Shown: positions 5,584-61,939 of the stretch, in pieces
Numbering within the stretch: position 1 is the stretch's first letter
Layout of the letters: every line of letters starts with the position of its first letter
Assembly: GCA_017616895.1 (NCBI GenBank)
Contig: JAFZXE010000020.1
Location: 1 to 64,000, forward strand
DNA length: 64,000 nt
Direction: 5' to 3'
Source of the DNA: Bacteroidales bacterium
Lineage (GTDB): Bacteria; Bacteroidota; Bacteroidia; Bacteroidales; P3
Translations under genes and position numbers: made by a program
Notes under the pieces: model-generated
The model's input: the letters and a program-made list of their open reading frames with translations, nothing else
What the model was told of the DNA's origin: nothing
The model's database searches: none

Positions 5584-5632
5584 CAAAAATAAAATGGAGT
5601 GTGGAAAATAATTTTGGAGACGAGAAATGTTG

Positions 5633-5640
5633 TATCTTTG
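5633..5640 (+). promoter_or_regulatory. -7 promoter element TATCTTTG for the Nudix gene
   Basis: Perfect TAnnTTTG match. A TTTG lies at 5613-5616, a 16-bp spacing that is shorter than usual. It lies within the longest open frame of the Nudix gene, so the translation start must be downstream; this supports the ATG at 5685. Confidence 0.7.
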
Positions 5641-5684
5641 CAGCGTATTTCACTGCCGTATTACAGCGGAACAGAGGGAAACAG

Positions 5685-6089
5685 ATGGAACAAGTTAAAC
5701 GAATTGAGGTTGTCGCTGCCATCATTCACGATGGCGACGGGCGCATTTTCGCCACACAGCGAGGATATGGCGACTGGAAAGGCTGGTGGGAGTTCCCTGG
5801 CGGCAAGATTGAACTTGGAGAGAGTCCCGAAGAGGCATTGCTGCGTGAAATCCGAGAGGAGTTGGAGGCATGCATCGTAATCGAGAGCTTGGTAACGACA
5901 GTGGAGTGGGATTATCCGAAGTTCCACCTCACAATGCACTGCTACTGGTGCCACGTGGAGAGCGGTACACTGACTCTGAAAGAGCATGATGCTGCCCGCT
6001 GGCTCGCCTCAAACGAGTTGGAGAGTGTAAAGTGGCTACCAGCCGACCTGCAGGTAAACGAAATCCTGCAACGATATTATTTTCATTGA
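5685..6089 (+). CDS. Nudix hydrolase, MutT-like (deoxy)nucleoside triphosphate pyrophosphohydrolase
   Basis: 134 residues. Expected to hydrolyse nucleoside diphosphate-linked substrates such as oxidised dNTPs to the monophosphate. The Nudix box is intact around residues 37-59: GGKIELGES, then REIREELEA (consensus G-x5-E-x7-R-E-U-x-E-E-x-G-U, with Ala in place of the last Gly). The N-terminal VVAAIIHDGDGRIFATQRG and the C-terminal WLASNELESVKWLPADL are typical of MutT/CTP-pyrophosphohydrolase relatives. The frame is open further upstream, but the promoter -7 box lies there, so the ATG at 5685 is chosen. Substrate cannot be told from sequence. Confidence 0.9.
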   Translation: MEQVKRIEVVAAIIHDGDGRIFATQRGYGDWKGWWEFPGGKIELGESPEEALLREIREELEACIVIESLVTTVEWDYPKFHLTMHCYWCHVESGTLTLKEHDAARWLASNELESVKWLPADLQVNEILQRYYFH

Positions 6090-6161: not shown

Positions 6162-6169
6162 TATCTTTG
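6162..6169 (+). promoter_or_regulatory. -7 promoter element TATCTTTG for the ABC/partner-switch operon
   Basis: Perfect match to TAnnTTTG, 53 bp before the first start codon of the six-gene operon. No further strong -7 match was seen between the genes of the operon, supporting a single transcript from here. Confidence 0.65.
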
Positions 6170-6222
6170 TATTTTGAATATTTTACAGCCGTAGGCCTTA
6201 TTTCATAGTAACACAGTTGTTT

Positions 6223-7167
6223 ATGAAGAAATATATCTTGTCTTTCCTGTTTGCCATTGCCGTTTTTCCCGCTGTGGGGCAGGAACGTTTTGTTTTTACG
6301 CCGCAATGGACTGCACAAGCGCAGTTTGCGGGCTACTATGTGGCGCAGGAGAAAGGATTCTACAAAGAAGCCGGCATAGACGTGGCGATAGTACACCCTT
6401 CCGTAACGCAGTCGGCCATGGCTCGAATACGCAAAGGTGAGAGCCATGCGACCACGCTCCAGCTCTGCCAGGCATTGGAGATTGTTGACGGTGGGATTCC
6501 TCTGGTTAACATACTGCAGACATCGATGAACAACGGAATGGTGATAGTGTCGCGATGGGGAAAGAACCCGCTGACGCAAAAAGGAGAACGAGTGGGAGTA
6601 TGGAGCGCTGGTTTCGGACAGTTGGCACGCTGTATGAGCCTAAAGGATAACCTGAACTACGAATGGATACCTTTCTCGACAAACGTTACTCTTTTTGTGA
6701 CTGGTGCCATTGATGCTACGCTGGGAATGAGCTACAACGAGTACTACCAGATAGTTCAGGCAGGCTTCCCGTTGACAGACAAGGAGGTTTATCGTTTCTG
6801 TGACCACGGATACAACGTCCAAGAGGACGGTGTCTATATGACGTGGGATTACTACAACAACCATAAAGAGCAGGCGAAGCGGTTTGCAGAAGCGAGCCGC
6901 AGAGGTTGGGAGTGGGCTGCAAAACACCGCGAGGAGACTCTCGAGATAGTGATGAAATACGTAAAGAAGGACCACATCGCCACCAATCGAGTGCTTCAGA
7001 AACTGATGTTGGAGGAAACCCTTCGCCTGCAAGTCGATCGCGAGAGCGGCAAACGCGAGTTCAGACTACGCCCCGACATGGTAAAAAAGGCCACAGACCT
7101 TATGGTGGAATATGGCATGATACGCGGTACTGTGCCCTATGAGAAATTGATAGACGCTGTGAAATAA
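6223..7167 (+). CDS. ABC transporter substrate-binding protein, NMT1/SsuA/THI5-like
   Basis: 314 residues. A signal peptide (MKKYILSFLFAIAVFPAVGQ) precedes a periplasmic binding protein of the NMT1/THI5 type: FTPQWTAQAQFAGYYVAQEK, then GFYKEAGIDVAIVHP and a repeated pattern of helix and strand to residue 314. There is no lipobox cysteine, so it is probably soluble in the periplasm. Family members bind thiamine precursors, sulfonates, nitrate or similar small ligands; the ligand here is unknown. It is the first gene of an operon that carries a sensor phosphatase between this gene and its permease. Usual partners of this family are SsuC-type permeases, whereas the permease here is HisM-like. 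An in-frame TTG lies at 6217, but the ATG at 6223 gives the signal peptide. Confidence 0.88.
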   Translation: MKKYILSFLFAIAVFPAVGQERFVFTPQWTAQAQFAGYYVAQEKGFYKEAGIDVAIVHPSVTQSAMARIRKGESHATTLQLCQALEIVDGGIPLVNILQTSMNNGMVIVSRWGKNPLTQKGERVGVWSAGFGQLARCMSLKDNLNYEWIPFSTNVTLFVTGAIDATLGMSYNEYYQIVQAGFPLTDKEVYRFCDHGYNVQEDGVYMTWDYYNNHKEQAKRFAEASRRGWEWAAKHREETLEIVMKYVKKDHIATNRVLQKLMLEETLRLQVDRESGKREFRLRPDMVKKATDLMVEYGMIRGTVPYEKLIDAVK

Positions 7168-7187
7168 ATTGAAATAGAATCAAAAAG

Positions 7188-9113
7188 ATGAAAAAACCAA
7201 TAAGCTATATACAGAGTTCCTTGTCCACCAGGCTTAGCCTACTGATAGTGATTTTCTCCGCAGCTATACTTGTGGCGTCGCTGGGCTTTATGTTCAATGT
7301 CTCAAGTCAAGCCATACGACAAGAGGCCATCAGCCGCGCCACACAGAGCCTTGAGAGCACAGCCCTCCGTGTGCAGGGCATCCTTGACCACGTGAAGGTG
7401 GCTACCGACAACACTGATTGGCTCATCACACGCCATCTGGATGGACCGGATTCAATGTTTGTATATTCAAGCCGCATCCTAGAGAACAACCCAGACCTCA
7501 ATGGATGTTCTATCGCTTTTGAACCCGACTTCTTCAAAGAAAAAGGCCGATGGTTCTCAGCCTACTCGCTCAACGACCACGGAACAATAAAGACAACGCA
7601 AGAAGGGAACCCGTACTACGAGTATTTCTACATGGACTGGTACCAGCTTTGCAAGCTGCTTGACCGACCAGTATGGACAGAGCCTTTCACAGACTACAAT
7701 CCAGAAGGTATCTATTCGCCGGAAATGATAACCTCATACTGCAAGCCTATCAAGGATCGCGATGGTAACTTCATCGGCACCATATCTGTCGATCTCTCGC
7801 TAAACTGGCTCTCGCAGACCATCTCCGCCGTAAAACCCTACCCCAACTCATACAGCATTATGATAGGTAGAGGCGGCACCTACTTTGTACATCCCGACAC
7901 CAATAAATTGTTCTACCAAACCATCTTCACAGAAACACTCGAGCATGAAGACACGGCACTGGTGTCACTGGGTCACGCAATGCAGAACGGCGAAGAGGGC
8001 ATGAAACAGTTGAAAATCGACGGCGAGAAGTGCTATGTGTTCTACAAGCCACTTGGAGAGACAGGATGGAGCACCGCTATCGTCTGCCCAGAGAGCGACA
8101 TCTTCGGAAGCTTTAACCGGATGAAGATATCCATTATGCTGGCTGTGGGAGCCGGGCTGCTTCTGTTGCTGCTTGCAAGTATTCGCATAATAACCCGCGA
8201 ACTGAAACCGTTGAAATTGTTGGCCAGCCAAGCTGAGACCATCGCGAGCGGAAACTTCGAAAAAGCGTTGCCCGATAGCAACCGCTCTGACGAAATAGGC
8301 CAGTTGAGCCACTCGTTCAAAGATATGCAACATTCGCTCATCACCTATATTGACGAGCTCAAGATGACCACTGCGCAGAAAGCCTCGATTGAGAACGAAC
8401 TCAAGGTGGCGAGCGACATACAGATGAGCATGTTGCCACGAATCTTCCCCGCATTTCCTAACCGCAAGGACATAGACCTCTATGCCTGCATGACCCCTGC
8501 TAAGGAGGTGGGTGGCGACCTATACGACTTCTTTGTACAGGACGAACGGCTCTACTTCTGCATCGGCGACGTCAGCGGCAAGGGAATACCTGCAAGCTTG
8601 TTCATGGCAGTGACACGCAACCTATTCCGCATCGTGGCCCAACAAGGACACTCACCTGCCGAGATTGCCCAGCAGATAAACACCATACTCTCACATGAAA
8701 ACGATCAGAACATGTTTGTCACTATGTTCATCGGCTGCGCTGACCTGAGGACAGGACACCTAGACTACTGCAACTGTGGACATAACGCACCGCTGCTCGA
8801 CAACTTGTTTATGGATGTCAAGAACACTAACTTCCCACTCGGAGTATTGGAGGGAGCCTCGTTTGTCGGTGAAAGCATCGATGACATACGCGACCGCCAG
8901 CTGCTGCTATACACCGATGGCCTCAACGAGGCCGAGAATCCGCAGAAGAAGTTATTTGGCGAAAAGCGGGTCATCGATACCTTGAATGGCGCGCAGAATA
9001 TGGACTCCAAGGCCATTATCCTTATGTTACAAGATGCTGTCGAGCGACACCGCGACGGCGCAGTTCCCAACGACGACTTGACTCTGCTTTGTTTGAAGGT
9101 CAATAAAGTCTAA
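7188..9113 (+). CDS. membrane sensor phosphatase: Cache-like, HAMP and SpoIIE/PP2C domains
   Basis: 641 residues. A transmembrane helix (about 17-37) is followed by a periplasmic region of about 270 residues with a Cache-like pattern (YYEYFYMDWYQLCKL, then VWTEPFTDYNPEGIYSPEM and GTISVDLSLNWLS). A second membrane helix (about 313-335), a HAMP segment (ITRELKPLKLLASQAETIAS) and a SpoIIE/RsbU-type PP2C phosphatase follow: EVGGDLYDFF, IGDVSGKGIPASLFMA, CGHNAPLL, LYTDGLNEAEN and NDDLTLLCL carry the metal-binding aspartates. Such proteins dephosphorylate a STAS-domain antagonist when they sense a signal; that partner is encoded at 11311-11613. Position between binding protein and permease suggests it reads the same ligand or the binding protein itself (inference). 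Confidence 0.93.
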   Translation: MKKPISYIQSSLSTRLSLLIVIFSAAILVASLGFMFNVSSQAIRQEAISRATQSLESTALRVQGILDHVKVATDNTDWLITRHLDGPDSMFVYSSRILENNPDLNGCSIAFEPDFFKEKGRWFSAYSLNDHGTIKTTQEGNPYYEYFYMDWYQLCKLLDRPVWTEPFTDYNPEGIYSPEMITSYCKPIKDRDGNFIGTISVDLSLNWLSQTISAVKPYPNSYSIMIGRGGTYFVHPDTNKLFYQTIFTETLEHEDTALVSLGHAMQNGEEGMKQLKIDGEKCYVFYKPLGETGWSTAIVCPESDIFGSFNRMKISIMLAVGAGLLLLLLASIRIITRELKPLKLLASQAETIASGNFEKALPDSNRSDEIGQLSHSFKDMQHSLITYIDELKMTTAQKASIENELKVASDIQMSMLPRIFPAFPNRKDIDLYACMTPAKEVGGDLYDFFVQDERLYFCIGDVSGKGIPASLFMAVTRNLFRIVAQQGHSPAEIAQQINTILSHENDQNMFVTMFIGCADLRTGHLDYCNCGHNAPLLDNLFMDVKNTNFPLGVLEGASFVGESIDDIRDRQLLLYTDGLNEAENPQKKLFGEKRVIDTLNGAQNMDSKAIILMLQDAVERHRDGAVPNDDLTLLCLKVNKV

Positions 9114-9128
9114 TAGCTCGAAGGCACT

Positions 9129-9785
9129 ATGTTTAAGCAATCGTTATACACCATTTTTATAGAAGACAACCGCTGGTTGCTTCTGCTGCAGGGCCTTTGG
9201 GCCACTGTGGTGATTACGTTGCTATCCCTTGCCTTCGGCACATTGCTTGGAGGTTGCGTTTATTTTGCCACCCGTAACCGACGCCATTGGCTGCGTAACG
9301 TTGCAAAGTGGTACCGCGTCATAGTACGTGGAACCCCTCTCATGGTGCTCCTGCTGTTGTTCTATTACGTAGTGCTGCGAGGGTCTGGAGGAATTTGGGC
9401 GGCAATAATCGCCTTTTCTCTCAACTTCTCCAACTTTGCCTGCAGTATCATACAGTCGTCCATCGACTCCGTTGGACGAGGTCAGATTGAAGCCGGTCGC
9501 GCCCTTGGATTGAACCGCATACAGATACTGCGGTATATTATTGCGCCACAAGCACTACGCAATGCCTTGCCTGCATATAAATTCCAAGCAGTGTCATTGG
9601 TGAAAGGCACCTCGGTTGTAGGATATGTCGCCATTGTGGACCTTGCCCAAGCCACCGAAGCAATACGCACAGGCACTGGTATGTCACTGCTACCCCTTGT
9701 TGTCGTCACAGCCATATACTTCATGCTGGCTTGGATGCTGAACAAATTGTTGGACACCTTAGTAAAATCCGCCAGCCAGATATGA
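9129..9785 (+). CDS. amino-acid-type ABC transporter permease (HisM family)
   Basis: 218 residues, inner-membrane permease. Several hydrophobic helices are visible (about 20-45, 60-85, 90-112, 150-170, 188-212). The EAA loop that contacts the ATPase is clear: IEAGRALGLNRIQILRYIIA. This motif and the GTPLMVLLLLFYY segment are typical of the HisM/GlnP polar amino-acid uptake family. Only one permease gene is present, so a homodimer is likely. The stop codon overlaps the start of the ATPase gene (ATGA), indicating coupled translation. Confidence 0.92.
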   Translation: MFKQSLYTIFIEDNRWLLLLQGLWATVVITLLSLAFGTLLGGCVYFATRNRRHWLRNVAKWYRVIVRGTPLMVLLLLFYYVVLRGSGGIWAAIIAFSLNFSNFACSIIQSSIDSVGRGQIEAGRALGLNRIQILRYIIAPQALRNALPAYKFQAVSLVKGTSVVGYVAIVDLAQATEAIRTGTGMSLLPLVVVTAIYFMLAWMLNKLLDTLVKSASQI

Positions 9786-10867
9786 TTACCGCCAGCCATA
9801 TCAGCAAGACCATCACGCTGCCCAACGGACGGCGGATCAATATCCTCAACGACGTGAATTTCCATATTGAGCGTGGCGAGGTGGTAAGCATCATCGGTCC
9901 CTCGGGTTCCGGCAAAAGCACACTGCTCCGCTCACTCAACCTCTTAGACCCGCCCACTTCGGGTAGCATCAGTGTTGAGGGTGAGGATATATTGGCTTCG
10001 GGCTATCCCCGCCAACGGCTGCACCAGCGCATGGGTATGGTATTCCAACAATTTAACCTTTTCCCACATCTCACTGTGTTGGAGAATGTGATGTTGGCTC
10101 CCATGAAGGTTCTGAACATACCTCGCGAAGAAGCCGAAAACCTTGCCATCGAGATGCTACGCAAGGTAAGCTTGTCGGAACGAGCAACGCAGATGCCGAA
10201 CACACTCTCAGGTGGGCAGCAGCAGCGTACCGCTATTGCGCGGTGTTTGGCCATGCAGCCTGACATCATACTCTTCGACGAGCCCACTTCGGCACTCGAT
10301 CCCACAATGGTTGGCGAGGTACAAGGAGTCGTAAGGCTATTGGCACAGGAGAAGATGACGATGCTTATCGTGACGCACAACATGCGATTTGCTCACGACA
10401 TTGCCTCACGAACATTCTATATGCACGAAGGAACCATCCTTGAAGACGACACCCCTGGCAAGATATTCAACCAACCGCAGCATGCGGAGACCAAAGCCTT
10501 CGTACAGCGTATTCACAAGCTGGTGTTCGATGTTGAAAACCAGAATTTCGACTTCTACGACATGATGTCGCAGATACGTCAATACTGCATCCGTTTTGCC
10601 ATCCCTGAGCAGATGAACACGATTACGCACATAGTAGAGGAGATGATTCTGCTGCTGTCTGCATACGACAACCCGTTCCATATTGAGGTGAACCACGGCG
10701 AAATCTCAGGACAGACATCTGTCGTTATCCTTCACCGTGGCGAGACAATCTCGCCTCTTGACAAATCCGATGTTGACGAGTTGGCGGTAATGATTATCCG
10801 CGGCATGAGCAAAGAGATTACCACCGAACAGACCCCTGATGGAATACAATTGACATTCACGATATAA
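9782..10867 (+). CDS. ABC transporter ATPase (GlnQ-like) with an additional C-terminal domain
   Basis: 361 residues, about 115-120 longer than GlnQ/HisP proteins. Walker A is GPSGSGKST (39-47), the signature is LSGGQQQRTAIARCLA, and Walker B with D-loop is IILFDEPTSALDP; all look active. From about residue 240 an extra domain follows (LVFDVENQNFDFYDMMSQIR, then MNTITHIVEEMILLLSA and VVILHRGETISPL). Its alpha/beta pattern faintly recalls the GHKL fold of the RsbW-like protein encoded next, but the ATP-binding N and G boxes are not evident; this is a guess. The ATG at 9782 overlaps the permease stop; an upstream in-frame ATG exists but would overlap the permease deeply. Confidence 0.9.
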   Translation: MITASHISKTITLPNGRRINILNDVNFHIERGEVVSIIGPSGSGKSTLLRSLNLLDPPTSGSISVEGEDILASGYPRQRLHQRMGMVFQQFNLFPHLTVLENVMLAPMKVLNIPREEAENLAIEMLRKVSLSERATQMPNTLSGGQQQRTAIARCLAMQPDIILFDEPTSALDPTMVGEVQGVVRLLAQEKMTMLIVTHNMRFAHDIASRTFYMHEGTILEDDTPGKIFNQPQHAETKAFVQRIHKLVFDVENQNFDFYDMMSQIRQYCIRFAIPEQMNTITHIVEEMILLLSAYDNPFHIEVNHGEISGQTSVVILHRGETISPLDKSDVDELAVMIIRGMSKEITTEQTPDGIQLTFTI

Positions 10868-10883
10868 CTATCTATATATCACA

Positions 10884-11306
10884 ATGAATACTTTAGATGA
10901 ACATAGCCTCACGCTGCCAAATAATGTGGAATTTATCCCACAATTGGCCGCTTTTATCGAGGAGGTGACGGAGAGCCACGGTATAGCCCCCTCCGTAACG
11001 ATGAGCATCAACCTCGCCCTTGAGGAGGCGGTAGTCAATGTAATGAACTACGCCTATCCAGAAGGCTCTTTCGGCGAAATCGACATCTCGGTTTCATTCA
11101 GCGACGGCTCCATCACTTTTACCATCAAAGACTCGGGGAAACCCTTCGACCCGACTAAGGTTTCCGTCCCCGACACCTCGCTTTCCGCAGAGGAGCGTCC
11201 CATCGGAGGACTTGGGATATACTTGGTGCGCGAACTGATGGACGAGGTCTCCTATTGCTACGAAAACAACCACAATATTCTCACATTAAAAAAGAAAATA
11301 CAATAA
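10884..11306 (+). CDS. RsbW/SpoIIAB-like anti-sigma-type serine kinase
   Basis: 140 residues, a single GHKL (HATPase_c_2) domain. The N-box is NLALEEAVVNVMNYAYP (43-59), the G1 box IKDSGKPFDP, and the G2 region GGLGIYLVREL; all ATP-binding motifs are present. By family, it should phosphorylate the STAS protein encoded 4 bp downstream and bind a target that is released when the STAS protein is dephosphorylated. In Bacillus the target is a sigma factor; no sigma factor gene lies in this window, so the target here is unknown. Confidence 0.92.
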   Translation: MNTLDEHSLTLPNNVEFIPQLAAFIEEVTESHGIAPSVTMSINLALEEAVVNVMNYAYPEGSFGEIDISVSFSDGSITFTIKDSGKPFDPTKVSVPDTSLSAEERPIGGLGIYLVRELMDEVSYCYENNHNILTLKKKIQ

Positions 11307-11310
11307 CGAT

Positions 11311-11613
11311 ATGAATACAACCATTAAAGAAGTGAACGGCGAACTCTATGCCGTACTTGACGGTCGTCTTGACACCGCCGCAGCAGCCCAAACGGAAAAA
11401 GAGATTCAACCTTTGTTCAACAGCGAAGGGAAGAATGTGGTGCTAGACTGCAACGCACTGCAGTATATATCGTCCAGTGGCTTGCGCCTCTTCCTCGGCG
11501 TACTCAAATCAGTCAAGGCCAAAGGGGCTCATGTGTATATTACCGGCATGAGCGACGACATCCGGAATGTGTTCGCCATGACGGGATTCACTAATCTTTT
11601 TGAGTTCAGATAG
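11311..11613 (+). CDS. STAS-domain anti-anti-sigma-type antagonist (RsbV/SpoIIAA-like)
   Basis: 100 residues. A single STAS domain with the core VLDCNALQYISSSGLRLFLG at residues 44-63; Ser55 aligns with the serine phosphorylated in SpoIIAA (SSGL motif). It should cycle between a phosphorylated form made by the RsbW-like kinase and a free form made by the SpoIIE-type phosphatase of the same operon. It is the last gene of the operon; an inverted repeat covers its stop codon (11605-11628). Confidence 0.93.
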   Translation: MNTTIKEVNGELYAVLDGRLDTAAAAQTEKEIQPLFNSEGKNVVLDCNALQYISSSGLRLFLGVLKSVKAKGAHVYITGMSDDIRNVFAMTGFTNLFEFR

Positions 11614-11628
11614 TCTCGACTATCTGAA
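11605..11628. terminator. inverted repeat over the STAS gene stop codon
   Basis: TTCAGATAG (11605-11613) and CTATCTGAA (11620-11628) form a 9-bp stem with a 6-nt loop. It lies between convergent genes but has no T-tract on either side, so termination is only a possible role. Confidence 0.45.
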
Positions 11629-11663: not shown

Positions 11664-12149
11664 CTATACGATAAGGTCGGCGAGTGTGCCTTTGGCGGCA
11701 CGCAATAAATCTTGCGGTGCAATGTGGAACTGCAGACCTCGCTGGCCGGCACTACAATAGATTGTGTCGTAGTCGATTAGCGTCAGGTGAAACCATGTGG
11801 GCAACGGTTTCTTCATGCCGATAGGCGAGCAACCGCCACGGATGTAACCCGTCAATGGCAGCAGTTCCTTGACGTGAATCATCTCCACCTTCTTGTTGCC
11901 TGTCACCTTGGCAGCTTTCTTGAGATCTACCTCCTCGGCTCCTGGGACGACGCAGACGAACAAACCAGACTTGTCGCCCCGCAGCACCAATGTCTTGAAA
12001 AGCCGCTCAATAGGTTGTCCCAACTGCTCAGCAATATGAGCAGCACCGAGGTCGTTCTCATCCACCTCGTATGGGATAAGCTCATAGGCTATCTTCAGCT
12101 GATCAAGCAGCCGAGCCGCATTTGTCTTTTTGGCACCCTTATCTGCCAT
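11664..12149 (-). CDS. ybaK: Cys-tRNA(Pro)/Cys-tRNA(Cys) deacylase, YbaK/EbsC family
   Basis: 161 residues, a single YbaK/aminoacyl-tRNA-editing domain of normal length. It hydrolyses mischarged tRNA, mainly Cys-tRNA(Pro), in trans. Family features are KTNAARLLDQLKIAYELIPY at the N-terminus, LVLRGDKSGLFVCVVPGAEEV in the middle and the GGCSPIGMKKPLP loop, which in YbaK carries the substrate-binding Gly-x-x-Ser-Pro. It is transcribed towards the end of the partner-switch operon. A minus-strand TATTTTTG (12206-12213) is a plausible -7 element. Confidence 0.93.
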   Translation of the reverse strand: MADKGAKKTNAARLLDQLKIAYELIPYEVDENDLGAAHIAEQLGQPIERLFKTLVLRGDKSGLFVCVVPGAEEVDLKKAAKVTGNKKVEMIHVKELLPLTGYIRGGCSPIGMKKPLPTWFHLTLIDYDTIYCSAGQRGLQFHIAPQDLLRAAKGTLADLIV

Positions 12150-53645: not shown

Positions 53646-54164
53646 ATGCGAGGCCTCATCATAAGAAACATACTGCGCTTCATAGCGCTGATAGCCATTC
53701 AAATCTTTGTTTTGAACAACATATACCTAGGCGGCTATATCTGCCCGATGCTATATGCCATGTTCATCCTGATGCTGCCAAACCGCATCGGGCGCATTTA
53801 CACAATCCTGATAGGCTTCATTCTCGGTCTTAGCATCGACATCTGCTCCAACACGTTGGGGTTCCATGCGTGCGCCACCACGGTGATGGCATTCTGCCGC
53901 ACCACCTTCGCCGAAAAAATCATCACACGCGGCGAGGACATATCAATCAACACACCGAGCATCTACAGCGTCGCACCGCAATTTTTCATATACTATTCCT
54001 CTCTGCTGCTGCTCATCCACTCGCTGGTCTTCTTCGCCCTTGACTACTTCAACTTTACCGACATATTAAGAATTATCCTTTCTTCGGTGCTCACCACCGT
54101 GGCCACTCTAGTGCTGGTTATAGTTTGGCAGATGCTGTTCAACCACAAGAGACGGACAAGATGA
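53646..54164 (+). CDS. mreD: rod shape-determining protein MreD
   Basis: 172 residues, almost all membrane-embedded: helices at about 10-28, 33-50, 55-75, 115-135 and 145-165. The PNRIGRIYTILIGFILGLSI segment and the position after mreC support the call; MreD proteins are poorly conserved. Stop overlaps the next start (ATGA). Confidence 0.88.
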   Translation: MRGLIIRNILRFIALIAIQIFVLNNIYLGGYICPMLYAMFILMLPNRIGRIYTILIGFILGLSIDICSNTLGFHACATTVMAFCRTTFAEKIITRGEDISINTPSIYSVAPQFFIYYSSLLLLIHSLVFFALDYFNFTDILRIILSSVLTTVATLVLVIVWQMLFNHKRRTR

Positions 54165-56476
54165 GACACTACCGCGCAATAACGCCACTCATGCTGGCAG
54201 TGCTGCTCTTTACGGGAAGTACGGCATCGGCACAGCGTATAGGGCAGTGGACATCGTACCTCTCGTACAACAAGATAAAGCACGTCGTAGATGCGCAGAG
54301 CCGCATCTATGCCGCCAGCGACAAGGGAGTTTTCTACTACGACATCGACGACCTGACCGTCAACCCCATAGCCAAAGGGGACGGGCTCAGCGACGTAGGC
54401 ATTAGCACAATAGCCTACGACCGCCACACCCACTCGCTGTTCGTGGCATACAACAACGGAAACCTGGACATCCTGCAGAGAGACAACACATACAACATTT
54501 CGGGCATCAAGCAGTGGGTCTATTCGGGTGACAAAAGCATCAATTCAATCGCCTTCCACGGAAACAAGGCCTACCTCGCCTGCGGGTTCGGCATCGTCGT
54601 GATAAACACCTCCCGCAAAGAAATCGAAGACACCTATTATTTCTCTGACGACTACTCGGCAAACTGCGCGGTATATGACATAGCCTTCACCGACTCGCTC
54701 ATATACATAGCCACCTCCAAAGGACTCATGCACGCTCCGCTGCAGAGTTCCTACCTCAACATCGAAAGCACCTGGACAGCCGACAACTCGGCTCCTTGGG
54801 ACACAGCCAAGCCTCAGCAACTCGCCGCCATAGGCAACCGCCTGGCTGTGGCAGCCATCACCACCGACCCCTCTATGCTCTCGCTTTATATGCAGACATC
54901 CGAAGGGTTTGTCAGTGTAACCCGTGGGCAGATTTCATCCATGCAGGTGTGCGACACCATGCTGGTAGTCTCCATGTGGAACTCCGTGGCGGTTTACACA
55001 CCCCAGGGCAACCTCGTGAGGTCGGTCTCCTCCTTTATATATGGTGATATACTCGCCTACGATGCCACACAAACCTCCGACGGGCGGCTGTGGATAGGAC
55101 ACGACTGGGCAGGCATGATAGTAATCGATAAAGACGGCTCCATGTTCACCACCTCTCCCGACGGCCCCACATCCGACAATGTCTATCGCATACGTCCCGT
55201 CACAGGCGGTGTCGCGGTGTGCCCAGGCGGCAAGTCGGGCGTCAACGCCAGCCTCTACCTCGACGGCACACTCAACATATACAAGGACCATAAGTGGAAC
55301 ACTACCGACAAGTCCAACCTGCCCATCTGGGTTTACGACCTAGTCGATGTCGCCGAGAACCCCACAGACAACCATATCCTCTCGGCAGCCTCGTGGGGAT
55401 GCGGGGTCATGGAGCTGCGCGACAACGTGGCACAGGCGGTATATGACACCTCTAACAGCGACGGAACCCTCGATGCCTATGTCTCCGGCTCGTTCGCCAC
55501 GCTCCGCATCGGCTCGCTGGCCTACGACTTCGGTGGCAACCTCTGGATGCTCAACGTCATGTCCGACAACGGACTGGCGGTTCACTATGCCGACGGCTCC
55601 TGGCGCGCTTTCAACACCTCGGGCGTCGTAAATGGAGCAATAACCAACAACCTTATCTTCGACAGCGTGACGGGCTACCTCTGGTTCTCGGGGCGCAACA
55701 ACCGCATCTTCGTACATAACGGCGGCGACCTCGTCTCGTGGGTTGACCCGAACCAGGGGAGCAGGCTTGAGACCAACATGGTGAACTGCATGGTTCAAGA
55801 CCAGAACGGACACATCTGGATAGGTACCGACAAAGGCATCAAGGTCATCTATGACGGCTACAAAGCTTTCGACAACGGCGGCAACGGCGAGCTCTCGCCC
55901 GTGAGTTGCTCGAATATCCTTTTCTCCGAGGGCGAACTGGTCGAATATCTGCTCGCCTACGAGTCCATAACCTCCATCGCCGTTGACGGTGCCAACCGCA
56001 AATGGATAGGCACCGCTGCCGGCGGACTCTACCTGCTCTCCTCCAACGGCCTCGAGCAGATAGAAAACTTCACCACCATCAACAGTCCCCTCTTCTCCAA
56101 CAAGATTGTGTCGGTCGGCATACACCCCATCACCGGCGAGGTCTTCATCGGCACCGATATGGGATTGCAGTCCTACCGCTCAACCGCCACCTACGCCGAA
56201 GAGGAACCTGAAAAGAAGATTCACGTCTTCCCCAACCCCGTCAGACCCGAGTACGACGGCCCTGTGGCTATGCGCGGCTTTACCCGCAACGCTATCGTGC
56301 ACATCACCGACGAGTCGGGTCATGTGGTCTATTCCACCCGCGCCGACGGCGGTCAGGCTATCTGGTACATCCGCAGCAACTCGGGCGAGCGTGTGAGCAC
56401 TGGCGTCTATTTCGTCTTCGCCTCCGACGACGAGGGACACAACAAGTCGGTCGGGAAAATCCTTGTAATCAAATAG
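54161..56476 (+). CDS. porZ: T9SS-associated beta-propeller protein PorZ
   Basis: 771 residues. Signal peptide MRHYRAITPLMLAVLLFTGS with cleavage near ASAQ. The start of the mature protein, RIGQWTSYLSYNKIKHVVDA, is characteristic of PorZ, followed by two propeller-like regions of repeated W-I-G-T/A blades (for example GHIWIGTDKGIKVIYDG and NRKWIGTAAGGLYLLSSNG) and a C-terminal sorting-domain-like part (IHVFPNPVRPEYDGPVAMRG). In Porphyromonas, PorZ is a surface component of the T9SS attachment complex involved in delivery of anionic LPS. The ATG overlaps the mreD stop. Confidence 0.88.
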   Translation: MRHYRAITPLMLAVLLFTGSTASAQRIGQWTSYLSYNKIKHVVDAQSRIYAASDKGVFYYDIDDLTVNPIAKGDGLSDVGISTIAYDRHTHSLFVAYNNGNLDILQRDNTYNISGIKQWVYSGDKSINSIAFHGNKAYLACGFGIVVINTSRKEIEDTYYFSDDYSANCAVYDIAFTDSLIYIATSKGLMHAPLQSSYLNIESTWTADNSAPWDTAKPQQLAAIGNRLAVAAITTDPSMLSLYMQTSEGFVSVTRGQISSMQVCDTMLVVSMWNSVAVYTPQGNLVRSVSSFIYGDILAYDATQTSDGRLWIGHDWAGMIVIDKDGSMFTTSPDGPTSDNVYRIRPVTGGVAVCPGGKSGVNASLYLDGTLNIYKDHKWNTTDKSNLPIWVYDLVDVAENPTDNHILSAASWGCGVMELRDNVAQAVYDTSNSDGTLDAYVSGSFATLRIGSLAYDFGGNLWMLNVMSDNGLAVHYADGSWRAFNTSGVVNGAITNNLIFDSVTGYLWFSGRNNRIFVHNGGDLVSWVDPNQGSRLETNMVNCMVQDQNGHIWIGTDKGIKVIYDGYKAFDNGGNGELSPVSCSNILFSEGELVEYLLAYESITSIAVDGANRKWIGTAAGGLYLLSSNGLEQIENFTTINSPLFSNKIVSVGIHPITGEVFIGTDMGLQSYRSTATYAEEEPEKKIHVFPNPVRPEYDGPVAMRGFTRNAIVHITDESGHVVYSTRADGGQAIWYIRSNSGERVSTGVYFVFASDDEGHNKSVGKILVIK

Positions 56477-57213: not shown

Positions 57214-57245
57214 TTTGGTAGTTGGCTGGAAGTTTCGTATCTTTG
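57214..57245 (+). promoter_or_regulatory. promoter of lectin-like paralogue 1
   Basis: TTTG (57214-57217), 20 bp, TATCTTTG (57238-57245). The leader from here to the ATG is nearly identical to that of paralogue 3. Confidence 0.8.
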
Positions 57246-57266
57246 CACGCTGAAATATACGGCAAT

Positions 57267-59564
57267 ATGAAACGCTTATTCCTACTCGCGACAGCCCTGC
57301 TGTTCTTTATACCCGCGATTATGGCGCAAGTGACGGACAGCTACCGTCCGGGCGGATTCGACTACAACGGGGCGTCGATAAAGACATTCTCAGTGTCAGA
57401 CCTCACCGCCGTACAGTTCTCGCGCGGCAATCTGCAGTACAATCCCACGCTCGACAAGTGGCGCTTCGCCCTGCGGCAGTATCAGTTCGCCTGCAACGAC
57501 AACGCCAACATAGCAGAAGGCTACGATGGATGGATTGACCATTTTGGATGGGGCACCAGCGGGTGGAACAGCGGAGCGAACGCCTACCAGCCCTGGTCAA
57601 CAAGCACAACAATCACTGACTACCAACCTGGCGGCAGCATTGACAACGACCTTGCGGGTGCCTACGCCAAAGCCGACTGGGGCATTTACAACAAGATTGA
57701 GAACGGTGGCAAATTCGCAGGCATGTGGCGCACGCTTACCAAGGACGAGTGGAGCTACCTTCTCGGCAACAATACCAAGCGCAGCGGCAAATGGGGCTTA
57801 GCCACAATCGCTGGCACCTTCTACGGTTTGATGATACTGCCCGACGAGTGGACTCTGCCAGCGGGATGCAGCTTCACTTCGGGTAATGCCAACGGATACA
57901 ACACCAACCGCTACTCCTACGCCGAATGGGAGAAGATGCAAGCCGCCGGCGCCGTCTATCTGCCAGCCTCGGGCAACCGCTACGGCACCGAGATTTGGGA
58001 CATAGACACTCAGGAGGGCGACTATTGGTCGAGCTCACACTGCGACGAACACGACGCATACAACATACGTTTCGGCAATGACTACGTCCGCGTGGCAAAC
58101 AACGAACGCGTCCACGGCCGCTCCGTTCGACTCGTCCGCCGAGTTCAGACACCGATGGTTAAACACGACTGGGTGGATCTGGGCTTGCCGAGCGGCACAC
58201 TATGGTACTCCTGCAATGTTGGAACATCGTCGCCGGAAGGCTACGGCAGGTACTTCGCCTGGGGCGAAACTCGTACGAAGGATGATTATAGCTGGGAAAA
58301 CTACGCATATGGAACAAGCAGTACAACACTAACAAAATATTGCGATAAAACAAACTATGGGCTTGACGGTTTCATGGATAATATAGCTGTCCTTGAGACT
58401 GCTGACGATGCAGCAAGGGCCGCACAGGGAAGCGCAGCACATACGCCAACTGAGGCTGAGTGGCAAGAACTGGCAAGCAACTGTATGGGCGAAGAAACAA
58501 CGTATAACGGCGTGAAAGGCTGGATGTTCACCAGCAAAACTAACGGTAATCGACTATTCCTGCCCGCTGGCGGACTCCGTGGCGACAGCCAATTCGAAAA
58601 TCACATTTATGGTTTTTACTGGTCTTCGTCGCTCTCAAAAACCATTCCATCTCGAGCAATTTGTTATACTTTCGGTGCAGAGGCGGATTTTGACAGCAAT
58701 TTGCGTAGGGATGGGCTGTCTATTCGTGCGGTAAAAAACGGCACTCCTGCTGCGTTTGACGCAAACGGCGCTTCAACAAAGACTTTTACTGTGGCAGAAG
58801 GGCGCACGGTACACTTCTCGAAGGGCAATCTGCAATACAATGCTGCGACAAATATCTGGCGCTTCGCTTTGAATCAGTATGATTATGTCGGCGATGTCAA
58901 CTCGAACATTTCGTCATCATACAACGGCTGGATAGACCTCTTCTGCTGGGGCACCAGCGGATGGAACAGCGGGGCAAGCGCCTATCAGCCTTGGTCAACG
59001 AGCACATCGAATGGCAGCTATTATGTCGGCGGTAGCTATACGAACAACCTGACGGGAGAATACGCCAACGCCGACTGGGGTGTGTATAACGCCATCCAGA
59101 ACGGCGGCAACCAGACAGGTATGTGGCGCACGTTGACCAGGAATGAATGGATTTATCTTTTGTTTACGAGAAGTGCCTCGACTGTTTGTGGAACCGAAAA
59201 TGCAAGATATGCAAAAGCGAAAATAGGCAATGTGGCAGGACTGATAGTCCTTCCCGACAACTTCACAATGCCTGCGGGAGTGAATGATTTGGTAAGCATA
59301 AACACGTCTGGTTCCGCTTATGCAAACAATGTATATACCACAGCTCAGTGGATGGTGTTGGAGAGAGCCGGAGCCATATTCCTGCCTGCTGCGGGCAGCC
59401 GCGAAGGGACGAGTGTGAGCAGTGCGGGTGAGAGCGGACTCTATTGCCCCAGTACCTATTACAGCTCAGGCGCAACACAGGGCATAGCCTTCACTGCTAA
59501 TTTAGTTGACTTCAGCATTCTATACCGCTACCTCGGCACATCGGTCCGTCTTGTGAGGGATTAG
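57267..59564 (+). CDS. secreted modular protein with C-type-lectin-like (FISUMP/DUF1566-type) domains, paralogue 1
   Basis: 765 residues. Signal peptide MKRLFLLATALLFFIPAIMA. Three modules: A (about 22-295, FSRGNLQYNPTLDKWRFAL, WGTSGWNSGANAYQPW, then YWSSSHCDEHDAYNIRFG and SVRLVRRV), B (about 296-490, WVDLGLPSGTLWYSCNVG, YFAWGET, ending LSIRAVKNG) and a second A (about 495-765, ending SVRLVRD). The YWSS...RLV endings resemble the formylglycine-generating/C-type lectin fold used in FISUMP domains and in diversified bacterial receptors. No T9SS sorting domain. Function unknown; surface binding or secretion is inferred. Two adjacent paralogues follow. Confidence 0.8.
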   Translation: MKRLFLLATALLFFIPAIMAQVTDSYRPGGFDYNGASIKTFSVSDLTAVQFSRGNLQYNPTLDKWRFALRQYQFACNDNANIAEGYDGWIDHFGWGTSGWNSGANAYQPWSTSTTITDYQPGGSIDNDLAGAYAKADWGIYNKIENGGKFAGMWRTLTKDEWSYLLGNNTKRSGKWGLATIAGTFYGLMILPDEWTLPAGCSFTSGNANGYNTNRYSYAEWEKMQAAGAVYLPASGNRYGTEIWDIDTQEGDYWSSSHCDEHDAYNIRFGNDYVRVANNERVHGRSVRLVRRVQTPMVKHDWVDLGLPSGTLWYSCNVGTSSPEGYGRYFAWGETRTKDDYSWENYAYGTSSTTLTKYCDKTNYGLDGFMDNIAVLETADDAARAAQGSAAHTPTEAEWQELASNCMGEETTYNGVKGWMFTSKTNGNRLFLPAGGLRGDSQFENHIYGFYWSSSLSKTIPSRAICYTFGAEADFDSNLRRDGLSIRAVKNGTPAAFDANGASTKTFTVAEGRTVHFSKGNLQYNAATNIWRFALNQYDYVGDVNSNISSSYNGWIDLFCWGTSGWNSGASAYQPWSTSTSNGSYYVGGSYTNNLTGEYANADWGVYNAIQNGGNQTGMWRTLTRNEWIYLLFTRSASTVCGTENARYAKAKIGNVAGLIVLPDNFTMPAGVNDLVSINTSGSAYANNVYTTAQWMVLERAGAIFLPAAGSREGTSVSSAGESGLYCPSTYYSSGATQGIAFTANLVDFSILYRYLGTSVRLVRD

Positions 59565-59582: not shown

Positions 59583-59614
59583 CTTGGTAGTTGGTTGAAA
59601 GTTTCATATCTTTG
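59583..59614 (+). promoter_or_regulatory. promoter of lectin-like paralogue 2
   Basis: CTTG (59583-59586), 20 bp, TATCTTTG (59607-59614). The flanking leader is similar to, but less identical than, those of the other two copies. Confidence 0.75.
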
Positions 59615-59635
59615 CACTTTGATTTATACGACAAT

Positions 59636-61939
59636 ATGAAACGCTTTTTCTTACTCGCAACAGCCTTGATGTTTTTTATACCTGCAGTCACAGCGCAGGT
59701 GACGGACAACTACCGTCCGGCGGGATTCGACTACAACGGGGCGTCGATAAAGACCTTCTCGGTGTCGGACAACGAGGCGGTGCAGTTCTCGCGCGGCAAC
59801 CTGCAGTACAACGCTGCACAAAACAAATGGCGCTTTGCGTTGCGGCAGTATTACAGCGCTTGTAACGACAACAACAACATAGCTGAGGATTACGACGGGT
59901 GGATAGACTTGTTCGGATGGGGGACGAGTGGATGGAACAGCGGTGCGACGGCATATCAGCCCTGGTCGACAAGCACGACCAGTTTAGACTATCAGCCAGG
60001 CGGTAGTTATGAGAACAGTCTTACTGGCGCATACTCCAACGCCGATTGGGGCATATACAACAAGATTGAGAACGGTGGAAAATTCGCCGGTATGTGGCGG
60101 ACGCTGACCAAAGACGAGTGGGAGTATCTTGTAGGCAGCAACACTAAGCGCAACGGTAAGAACGGGTTAGCAACAATCGGCGGCATACACAAAGGATTAC
60201 TGTTGCTGCCCGACGAGTGGACGTTGCCGTCGGGATGCAGCTTTACGGCAGGATTCGCCAATGGCTACGCAACCAACCAATACACTTATGCCCAGTGGGA
60301 GAAGATGCAGTCGGCTGGTGCTGTATTCATGCAGGCTGCGGGCTACCGCTTCGATACGGAGGTGTACGAGGTAGGTGGGTACGGCGGCTATTGGTCGAGT
60401 ACTTGCGGCAGTGAGTCCGACGCGTGGGAGGCGTACTTCGGCGAGGGCGATCTCGGTGTAACCAACAACAGTCGCTACGACGGTCGTTCCGTCCGTCTCG
60501 TCCGCCGAGTGCAGACACCTTTGGTGAAGCATGGCTGGGTAGATATGGGCTTACCCAGCGGCACACTCTGGTACTCCTGCAACGTTGGAACCACGAAACC
60601 CCAAAGCTACGGAGCATACTTCGCCTGGGGCGAAACACGTCCGAAGGCAGTATACGGTTGGAGCAACTATGCCTATGGAACAAGCGAAAACACACTCACA
60701 AAATACTGCCAAATTGCGGACAACGGTCTCGATGGCTTCGAAGACACTCTGATTGTCCTCCAACTCGGCGACGACGCAGCCAGGATAGCCCACGGCGGCG
60801 ACGCTCGCACACCAACCCAATCAGAATTTCTGGAACTGATTGACAACTGCACAAGAGGATGGTCAAAGTATAACGGTGTAAACGGATATATGCTTACCAG
60901 CAATACCAACGGCAACCGCCTGTTCTTCCCCGCCGCTGGCAATCGCCTTGGTGCGGAATTGATAGAACCTGGAGAGGTTGGTTTCTACCGATGCTCGTCT
61001 CTAGATACAGAGCACCCATCATACGCGTGGATATTGTACTTCGGTTCGGATGAATACACCTTAAGCCGTGGTATGCGCGCCTTGGGGTACTCCGTCCGTG
61101 CGGTAAAAGGCGGCACACATACGAATGAGGCGTTTGATGAGAACGGCGCTTCCATCAAGACTTTCACGGTGGCGGAGGGACGTACGGTACACTTCTCGAA
61201 GGGCAACCTGTGGTATAACGCTTACGCGAACCTGTGGCGGTTTGCGCCGGAACAGTTTCAATATATCGGTGATGCGAACACTAATATTTCTGAAACATAC
61301 AGCGGTTATATAGACCTCTTTGGCTGGGGCACTAGCGGCTGGAACAGCGGTGCGAACGCCTACCATCCATGGGATACGAGTTCAACGAATAGTGATTATT
61401 ATCCTGGCGGCAGCTATACCAACAATCTGACGGGAGAGTATGCCGACGCCGACTGGGGAGTGCATAACCCCATTTCCAATGGAGGCAACCGGGTGGGTAT
61501 GTGGCGCACACTGACAAAGGATGAGTGGGATTATCTTTTGCAAACAAGAAATGCTTCCACTGTTGGTGGAAGGGCGAATGCGAGGTATGCGTTGGCGACG
61601 ATAAATGGTACGGCTGGGGTGATAATTCTTCCCGACAGCTTCACTATGCCTACGGGAGTAACAGAATTGGGTGATATTAACACAGAAAGATCTTATACAA
61701 CCAATGTATATACTACAGCTGATTGGACGAAGTTAGAGGCTGCTGGTGCTATATTCCTGCCTGCTGCTGGAATCCGCGACGGGGTGGGAATGCACTTAGC
61801 GGGTGCGTACGGCAAATATTGGTCGAGTACGCACGACGATGAGAACTACGCGTGGGGCATTAACTTCAACGTCGATGGCCTTGGCGTGGGCAACTACTAT
61901 CGCAGCTACGCTTTCGCCGTCCGTCTCGTCAAGGAATAA
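59636..61939 (+). CDS. secreted modular protein with C-type-lectin-like domains, paralogue 2
   Basis: 767 residues with the same A-B-A plan as paralogue 1. Signal peptide MKRFFLLATALMFFIPAVTA. Module A1 runs to SVRLVRRV (about 290), B from WVDMGLPSGTLWYSCNVG to SVRAVKGG (about 490), A2 from ASIKTFTVAEGRTVHFSKGN to the C-terminal AVRLVKE. The first 110 residues are almost identical to paralogue 3, while the segment before each RLV end differs strongly between copies (for example YWSSTCGSESDAWEAYFGEG here). Some conserved blocks are identical at the DNA level, pointing to recent duplication or gene conversion. Confidence 0.8.
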   Translation: MKRFFLLATALMFFIPAVTAQVTDNYRPAGFDYNGASIKTFSVSDNEAVQFSRGNLQYNAAQNKWRFALRQYYSACNDNNNIAEDYDGWIDLFGWGTSGWNSGATAYQPWSTSTTSLDYQPGGSYENSLTGAYSNADWGIYNKIENGGKFAGMWRTLTKDEWEYLVGSNTKRNGKNGLATIGGIHKGLLLLPDEWTLPSGCSFTAGFANGYATNQYTYAQWEKMQSAGAVFMQAAGYRFDTEVYEVGGYGGYWSSTCGSESDAWEAYFGEGDLGVTNNSRYDGRSVRLVRRVQTPLVKHGWVDMGLPSGTLWYSCNVGTTKPQSYGAYFAWGETRPKAVYGWSNYAYGTSENTLTKYCQIADNGLDGFEDTLIVLQLGDDAARIAHGGDARTPTQSEFLELIDNCTRGWSKYNGVNGYMLTSNTNGNRLFFPAAGNRLGAELIEPGEVGFYRCSSLDTEHPSYAWILYFGSDEYTLSRGMRALGYSVRAVKGGTHTNEAFDENGASIKTFTVAEGRTVHFSKGNLWYNAYANLWRFAPEQFQYIGDANTNISETYSGYIDLFGWGTSGWNSGANAYHPWDTSSTNSDYYPGGSYTNNLTGEYADADWGVHNPISNGGNRVGMWRTLTKDEWDYLLQTRNASTVGGRANARYALATINGTAGVIILPDSFTMPTGVTELGDINTERSYTTNVYTTADWTKLEAAGAIFLPAAGIRDGVGMHLAGAYGKYWSSTHDDENYAWGINFNVDGLGVGNYYRSYAFAVRLVKE

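Follow-up and report, generated by a model that had tools for sequence, protein, structure and literature searches.

The window analyzed here, 64,000 nucleotides of contig JAFZXE010000020.1 (positions 1 to 64,000) from a Bacteroidales bacterium (GCA_017616895.1), carries at 6223-11613 an operon in which genes for an ATP-binding cassette (ABC) importer stand together with those for a partner switch, namely a SpoIIE phosphatase, an RsbW-like kinase, and a STAS antagonist. Judging from sequence comparison and structure prediction, we propose that the partner switch encoded with this nutrient importer governs its activity, STAS and RsbW gating the pump through the C-terminal domain of the ATPase (ATPC), and we put the probability of this reading at about one half. 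The gene set, the predicted fold of ATPC and its loss of catalytic residues, the repeated linkage of ATPC with the phosphatase, and the co-inheritance of transporter and phosphatase were all computed.

A predicted pseudokinase domain on the importer ATPase

Structure prediction assigned the 116 residues of ATPC with high confidence to the RsbW/SpoIIAB anti-sigma kinase fold, a point that the first-pass annotation had missed. At the aligned columns, the catalytic N-box Asn and G1 Asp were each present in 0/51 rows; one column off, Asn occurred in 1 row and Asp in 4. This alignment was drawn from 55 distinct C-termini after removal of L001 and L002, which are truncated, and of L097 and L136, which are poor, with the window reference standing in for L072. 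Given the RsbW-fold prediction and the lost Asn and Asp, the transporter is predicted to bear a catalytically dead version of the switch kinase. Counting the lead-in, the best conserved positions were Asp12 (51/51), Cys24 (50/51), Phe23 (49/51; Tyr in the window), and Glu62 (48/51). ATPC was identified through structure prediction and by way of intermediate sequences: the window's own domain had no PF13581 match, Pfam and NCBIfam returned nothing usable for the ATPase C-terminus, and a sequence-profile search of the PDB with ATPC gave a chance match only. When PF13581 was run on six distant ATPC relatives, one passed (30.2 bits), two came near (25.2 and 21.3), one scored 12.2, and two were without a match.

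In the proposed mechanism, the Cache domain would bind a ligand, with the NMT1-type binding protein acting as periplasmic co-receptor, and SpoIIE phosphatase activity would be set in this way. Phosphatase and RsbW kinase would then fix the share of unphosphorylated STAS protein, which, as the normal partner of the RsbW dimer, would also dock on the RsbW-fold domain of the ATPase. RsbW would compete for STAS and inactivate it by phosphorylation, and STAS occupancy of ATPC would open or close the importer. ABC ATPases work as dimers, so the two copies of ATPC could pair in the manner of RsbW and bind STAS as a dimer. Here we infer each binding step, the docking partner of ATPC, the sign of the effect, and the ligands. 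The first-pass annotation had guessed that the transporter itself might be the target of the switch, and this guess gains support because the ATPase bears a predicted RsbW-fold domain and is co-inherited with the phosphatase.

All six genes lie intact and closely packed on the + strand, as that annotation had observed, with intergenic gaps of 20, 15, -4, 16, and 4 bases (Table 1). Curated cut-offs were passed by the NMT1, SpoIIE, HAMP, Cache, permease, ABC, HATPase_c_2, and STAS domains. Its claim of a complete partner switch with intact catalytic motifs also held, since phosphatase, kinase, and STAS antagonist all pass their family tests. Read by eye, the expected motifs are in place: the ATPase has Walker A, signature, Walker B, and H-switch; RsbW has the N-box, G1, and G2, with Glu-Glu, Asn, Asp, and Gly-Gly-Leu-Gly kept; SpoIIE has GGDLYD, GDVSGKG, TDG, and NDD; and STAS has ISSSG. 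In the alignment, STAS Ser55 (11473-11475) falls opposite Ser56 of RsbV, the residue that is phosphorylated there. The ATPase scored 268.9 bits with PRK11264 and 268 bits with PRK09493, both under the equivalog cut-offs.

Table 1. Features of the importer and partner-switch operon, in window coordinates
Feature	Position	Strand	Basis
TATCTTTG box, promoter-like	6162..6169	+	Consensus match only; 53 bases upstream of the operon's first ATG
NMT1/THI5-type periplasmic binding protein	6223..7167	+	PF09084; predicted fold nearest ThiY/thiamin-binding and THI5 proteins
Membrane phosphatase, Cache-HAMP-SpoIIE	7188..9113	+	SpoIIE PF07228 150.7 bits (cut-off 25), HAMP 49, dCache_1 57.8
Phosphatase, periplasmic Cache domain	~7473-8081	+	
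Phosphatase, HAMP domain	8190-8339	+	
Phosphatase, SpoIIE/PPM domain	8541-9101	+	
ABC permease, HisM/polar amino-acid type	9129..9785	+	TIGR01726 51 bits (cut-off 42.2), BPD_transp_1; without own SBP_bac_3 domain
ABC ATPase, GlnQ/HisP type (residues 1-245), with C-terminal extension	9782..10867	+	Match ends at residue 244
ATPC, ATPase C-terminal domain, predicted RsbW/SpoIIAB-fold pseudokinase	10517..10864	+	ATPase residues 246-361
RsbW-like serine kinase (HATPase_c_2)	10884..11306	+	PF13581 98.8 bits (cut-off 27.4); catalytic residues kept
STAS anti-sigma-antagonist-type protein	11311..11613	+	TIGR00377 71.7 bits (cut-off 53.45)

Related domain arrangements were seen elsewhere. Permease, ATPase, and RsbW-fold domain are joined in single polypeptides of 910-931 residues at L085:4769-7540, L182:821-3553, and L187:6535-9330, and SpoIIE-RsbW fusions are also frequent. 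The same ATPase C-terminal domain is encoded in the Clostridia assemblies L186, L189, and L190 (Lachnospiraceae, Clostridiales, and Oscillospiraceae), with no switch genes recognised alongside.

Linkage and co-inheritance of transporter and phosphatase

PF07228 scores in the window's genus fell into two classes, strong (~147-182 bits) and weak (no more than ~65 bits, mostly a ~390-residue protein). ATPC was found in 26 of 120 genus genomes, all 26 of which have a strong SpoIIE, compared with 61/120 overall (P 8e-10); a PF07228 match of any class occurred in 93. Across the order, 21 of the 23 genomes with ATPC (among 393) have a strong SpoIIE, compared with 96/393 overall (P 4e-12). Both tests count genomes as independent, and their thresholds for a strong SpoIIE (1e-30 for the genus, 1e-43 for the order) were set after the two score classes had been seen. 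When the comparison was made within families, 21 ATPC genomes again fell on strong-SpoIIE genomes (P 5e-6), a test confined to listed genomes (the 81 without a match are not listed) and leaving out family f93, which holds two exceptions. A gene truncated by a contig end put G035 among the genomes without a strong SpoIIE, and G099, which had no ATPC match in the genus scan and a weak one (17 bits) when searched alone, was left uncounted. HisM-type permeases are rare, being matched in 28/120 genus and 21/393 order genomes.

When coordinates were compared, ATPC and a strong SpoIIE shared a strand and lay no more than 3 kb apart in 12 of those 26 genomes of the genus; G153, with SpoIIE ~3.4 kb off on the other strand, was not counted. 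Scanning 84,980 species, each represented by a single genome, yielded 29 loci, mostly Bacteroidales/Bacteroidetes and three Clostridia; all came from one peptide pattern, so that coverage is incomplete. SpoIIE lies downstream on the same strand in 17 of these, within 400 bases in 16, with RsbW and STAS usually next in line. In a tree built from 55 SpoIIE domains, of which 19 are linked to ATPC, the linkage state changes at least seven times, the tree being made by a quick method with many weak forks and 13/52 inner branches open. ATPC-linked SpoIIE occurs in the main type-B group, the window's group, L182, L181/L187, and, in another family, L153; several phosphatase lineages appear to have moved in beside the transporter separately. 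At L153:9484-10710, a 409-residue protein without a Pfam match follows a SpoIIE-RsbW fusion at the expected STAS position.

A search for the six-gene order in relatives had been suggested as a check, and none of the other loci examined together with their flanks showed the exact arrangement, so the operon as a single conserved six-gene unit was set aside. Both halves do recur, and the recurring core comprises permease, ATPase, RsbW, and STAS. Among SpoIIE genes, eight distinct ones have an NMT1-type binding-protein gene within 300 bases, and 6/8 of these are without such a transporter within 5 kb (one of the six, L052, ends at a contig end 1.1 kb downstream); loci for these neighbour counts were fetched via their SpoIIE or ATPase domain and are not an unbiased sample. 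The window's operon looks like a join of two modules, a binding-protein/phosphatase pair and the permease-ATPase-RsbW-STAS core. As the pair mostly occurs without this permease, the NMT1-type protein is probably the co-receptor of the phosphatase, and its assignment as the importer's own binding protein was set aside as less likely. Hence, sensing of the imported ligand, as first envisaged, is less likely than sensing through a separate co-receptor. The reported mixture of ABC classes stands insofar as both an NMT1-type protein and a HisM-type permease are present, but it looks like the product of this join. The operon, the only part of the genome covered in this respect, encodes no SBP_bac_3 binding protein; in two relatives tested, L080 and L165, SBP_bac_3 is fused to the permease. 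The binding protein also scored far under the NCBIfam cut-off for SsuA of the sulfonate importer (29.2 bits vs 163.5). Amino-acid sensing by the Cache domain was set aside, the dCache amino-acid motif being without its Arg in the window by eye.

Competing explanations and candidate outputs

Several results weigh against a pump gated by its own switch. Aligned by hhalign, ATPC and RsbW matched weakly (probability 18%, E 0.0014). No SpoIIE lay near in 12/29 scan loci (two of these have <600 bases downstream), ATPC occurs without recognised adjoining switch genes in Bacteroidales L080-L085 and three Clostridia loci, and adjacency is rare in other families, where SpoIIE stands next to the ATPase only in L153 among the 13 flanked loci L149-L161. 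At a threshold of 1e-30 the order test gives 21/23 vs 210/393 (P 8e-5); only ~8 SpoIIE candidates were scored in order genomes with many, so that 96/393 may be an undercount. Both order exceptions, G314 and G400, have weak ATPC matches (25 bits), no permease match, and no strong SpoIIE. All 21 order genomes with a HisM-type permease match have ATPC, which leaves the coupling inseparable between the domain and the whole transporter, and co-inheritance may belong to the transporter rather than to the domain. In G151, permease and ATPase are present with the ATPase cut before ATPC, and the genome has no SpoIIE match. This spot (L142, G151:C8, 7570-9918) holds the permease, the cut ATPase, and then an inverted permease piece; it reflects either decay or an assembly chimera, and looks chimeric.

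Conservation within ATPC is pertinent to the direction of signaling. In the excerpted text of PMC7340262, the first helix and strand of RsbW form the dimer surface and helices 1-3 bind the STAS partner. Most of the top-conserved ATPC positions lie in strand 1 and helix 1, a further point against gating since it fits pairing as well as STAS binding. Such conservation would allow RsbW-ATPC pairing and would therefore make the pump an input: ATPC would pair with RsbW or hold STAS, transport would report nutrient flow, and the output would lie elsewhere. Transporter-coupled sensing has precedents in Bce and Pst, and a pump could supply a second input beside the one given by the Cache phosphatase. 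However, the window's operon is without a separate output gene, its phosphatase is the sole PF07228 match in the genome (88% complete), and its RsbW scores highest among the genome's four PF13581 matches, of which three exceed the cut-off; we regard an input role as unlikely. The two further HATPase_c_2 genes over the cut-off, G000:C22:241967-242317 (L192) and G000:C10:83779-84006 (L193), encode 137 and 168 residues, and by eye no STAS or phosphatase was recognised alongside either.

A different output is suggested by the neighbours of other phosphatases. For 27/55 distinct SpoIIE genes, a RelA_SpoT-domain gene is encoded on the same strand no more than 5 kb away, which also counts against the importer as target; this count, too, comes from loci fetched via SpoIIE or the ATPase domain. 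The gene is often immediately downstream of STAS, and in L150 and L151, from another family, it stands immediately downstream of the ATPase that bears the RsbW fold. Its product of ~355 residues has a YjbM-like N-terminal part and scored 58.6-70.9 bits with Pfam RelA_SpoT in six tested (examples are L037:9846-10910, L150:6749-7828, and L187:12071-13150). The switch might thus control this alarmone-synthetase-like enzyme, with the importer as a co-regulated companion in amino-acid starvation control. Against this, a search for such a gene in this genome, confined to the 64-kb window, gave no match, and the C-terminal part of the enzyme is unlike RsbW or ATPC (hhalign probability <1%), leaving an RsbW-fold part in it unsupported. 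We judge this arrangement to be distinctly unlikely, although the enzyme is to be taken seriously as a competing output. Very doubtful, in turn, is a conventional switch in which the target held by RsbW, either a sigma factor that escaped recognition or some other regulator, is encoded elsewhere, the importer genes doing no more than share the operon. Partner switches classically end in sigma factors, and the window's genome does have sigma-70 family genes, with five matches to the SigBFG model (TIGR02980). The best of these reached 101 bits, under the 234-bit cut-off, which was passed by 0/120 genus genomes; this agrees with the remark in the first-pass annotation that Bacteroidota are not known for SigB. 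A conventional switch also leaves the ATPase's RsbW-fold domain and the co-inheritance unexplained. The least credible account, to which we give a very slight chance, takes ATPC for an old structural part of the importer subfamily, for example a dimer clamp, unrelated to the switch, with linkage and co-inheritance arising from shared ecology. The many loci, Clostridia included, with ATPC but no neighbouring switch genes fit this account, as does the constant pairing of permease and ATPC across the order, but repeated same-strand linkage with several phosphatase lineages and co-inheritance within families would both be unexpected.

Genomic context and relation to known systems

Upstream of the operon, 133 bases away, lies a NUDIX gene (5601-6089); downstream, on the opposite strand, lies a tRNA_edit-domain gene (11664-12149). 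The TATCTTTG box at 6162 fits the Bacteroidota -7 element consensus, and the window holds 42 TANNTTTG sites vs 26.8 expected. Further along, tandem open frames of ~780 residues (57222-59564, 59591-61939, and ~62023 onward) each have a TATCTTTG box near the start (57238, 59607, and 62023), and one of two scanned had a Pfam match (Lcl_C). The type IX secretion protein PorZ is encoded at 54125-56476 (N-terminal propeller 125 bits). Other families encode a further ABC importer, unrelated to this one, which comes with a STAS-domain protein (412-423 residues) of its own (L056:6798-14457, L047:2059-13208, and L159:11784-15810), and in L056 and L047 it adjoins a set of binding protein, Cache-SpoIIE, RsbW, and STAS. 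Pfam identified ABC_sub_bind, BPD_transp_2, and STAS in L056 and STAS in L159, the rest being assigned by likeness.

With evenly balanced confidence, we suggest that these loci represent a class of importers in Bacteroidales, and possibly Clostridia, in which a dead anti-sigma-kinase domain on the ATPase serves as docking site, through which either a STAS protein under phosphorylation control or RsbW itself would gate the pump or read its state. Partner switching would here act on transport rather than transcription, its sensors being exchangeable and an alarmone-synthetase-like enzyme often being linked to it. If so, uptake in such bacteria would be partly set by a fast protein switch whose sensors can be exchanged. 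Titles and the starts of abstracts in the open-licence literature gave, among the matches listed, no description of ATPC or of an importer-linked partner switch.

Like the Rsb and SpoIIA systems (RsbU-RsbV-RsbW and SpoIIE-SpoIIAA-SpoIIAB), the window encodes the trio of phosphatase, kinase, and STAS antagonist, and their catalytic motifs are intact. Unlike them, it belongs to a genus with no SigB/F/G-type sigma over the cut-off, and its operon includes an ABC importer whose ATPase has a predicted RsbW-fold domain. Partner switches are known mainly as sigma controllers, yet this genus has many without such a sigma factor, and an RsbW-fold domain built into an importer ATPase would be a concrete, testable output. 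Switches whose output is not a sigma factor can do without one of the SigB/F/G type. Among these, the SiaABC-type switch (SiaA, SiaB, and SiaC) acts on a diguanylate cyclase, whereas the linked candidate output here is an ABC importer. As in the polar amino-acid (PAAT) importers GlnPQ and HisMP, the permease is of the HEQRo type and the ATPase is closest to TcyN/GlnQ; unlike them, the operon is without an SBP_bac_3 domain. The extra domain after the nucleotide-binding domain recalls MetN, ModC, and NrtC/CmpC, whose C-terminal domains fold differently and have small molecules or PII as binding partners; no such regulatory ATPase domain is known to have an anti-sigma-kinase fold.

The closest precedent for control of an ABC ATPase by a STAS protein is MlaFB, in which, according to the excerpted text of PMC7367683, the STAS protein MlaB binds and regulates the ATPase MlaF and phosphorylation is proposed to block binding. 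MlaF as described there has a tail of ~25 residues and no RsbW-fold domain. How active MlaB is controlled is left open in that excerpt, whereas the window encodes a kinase and phosphatase alongside its ATPase. The operon described here may bear on this question, namely the phosphorylation control of STAS proteins that bind ABC ATPases.
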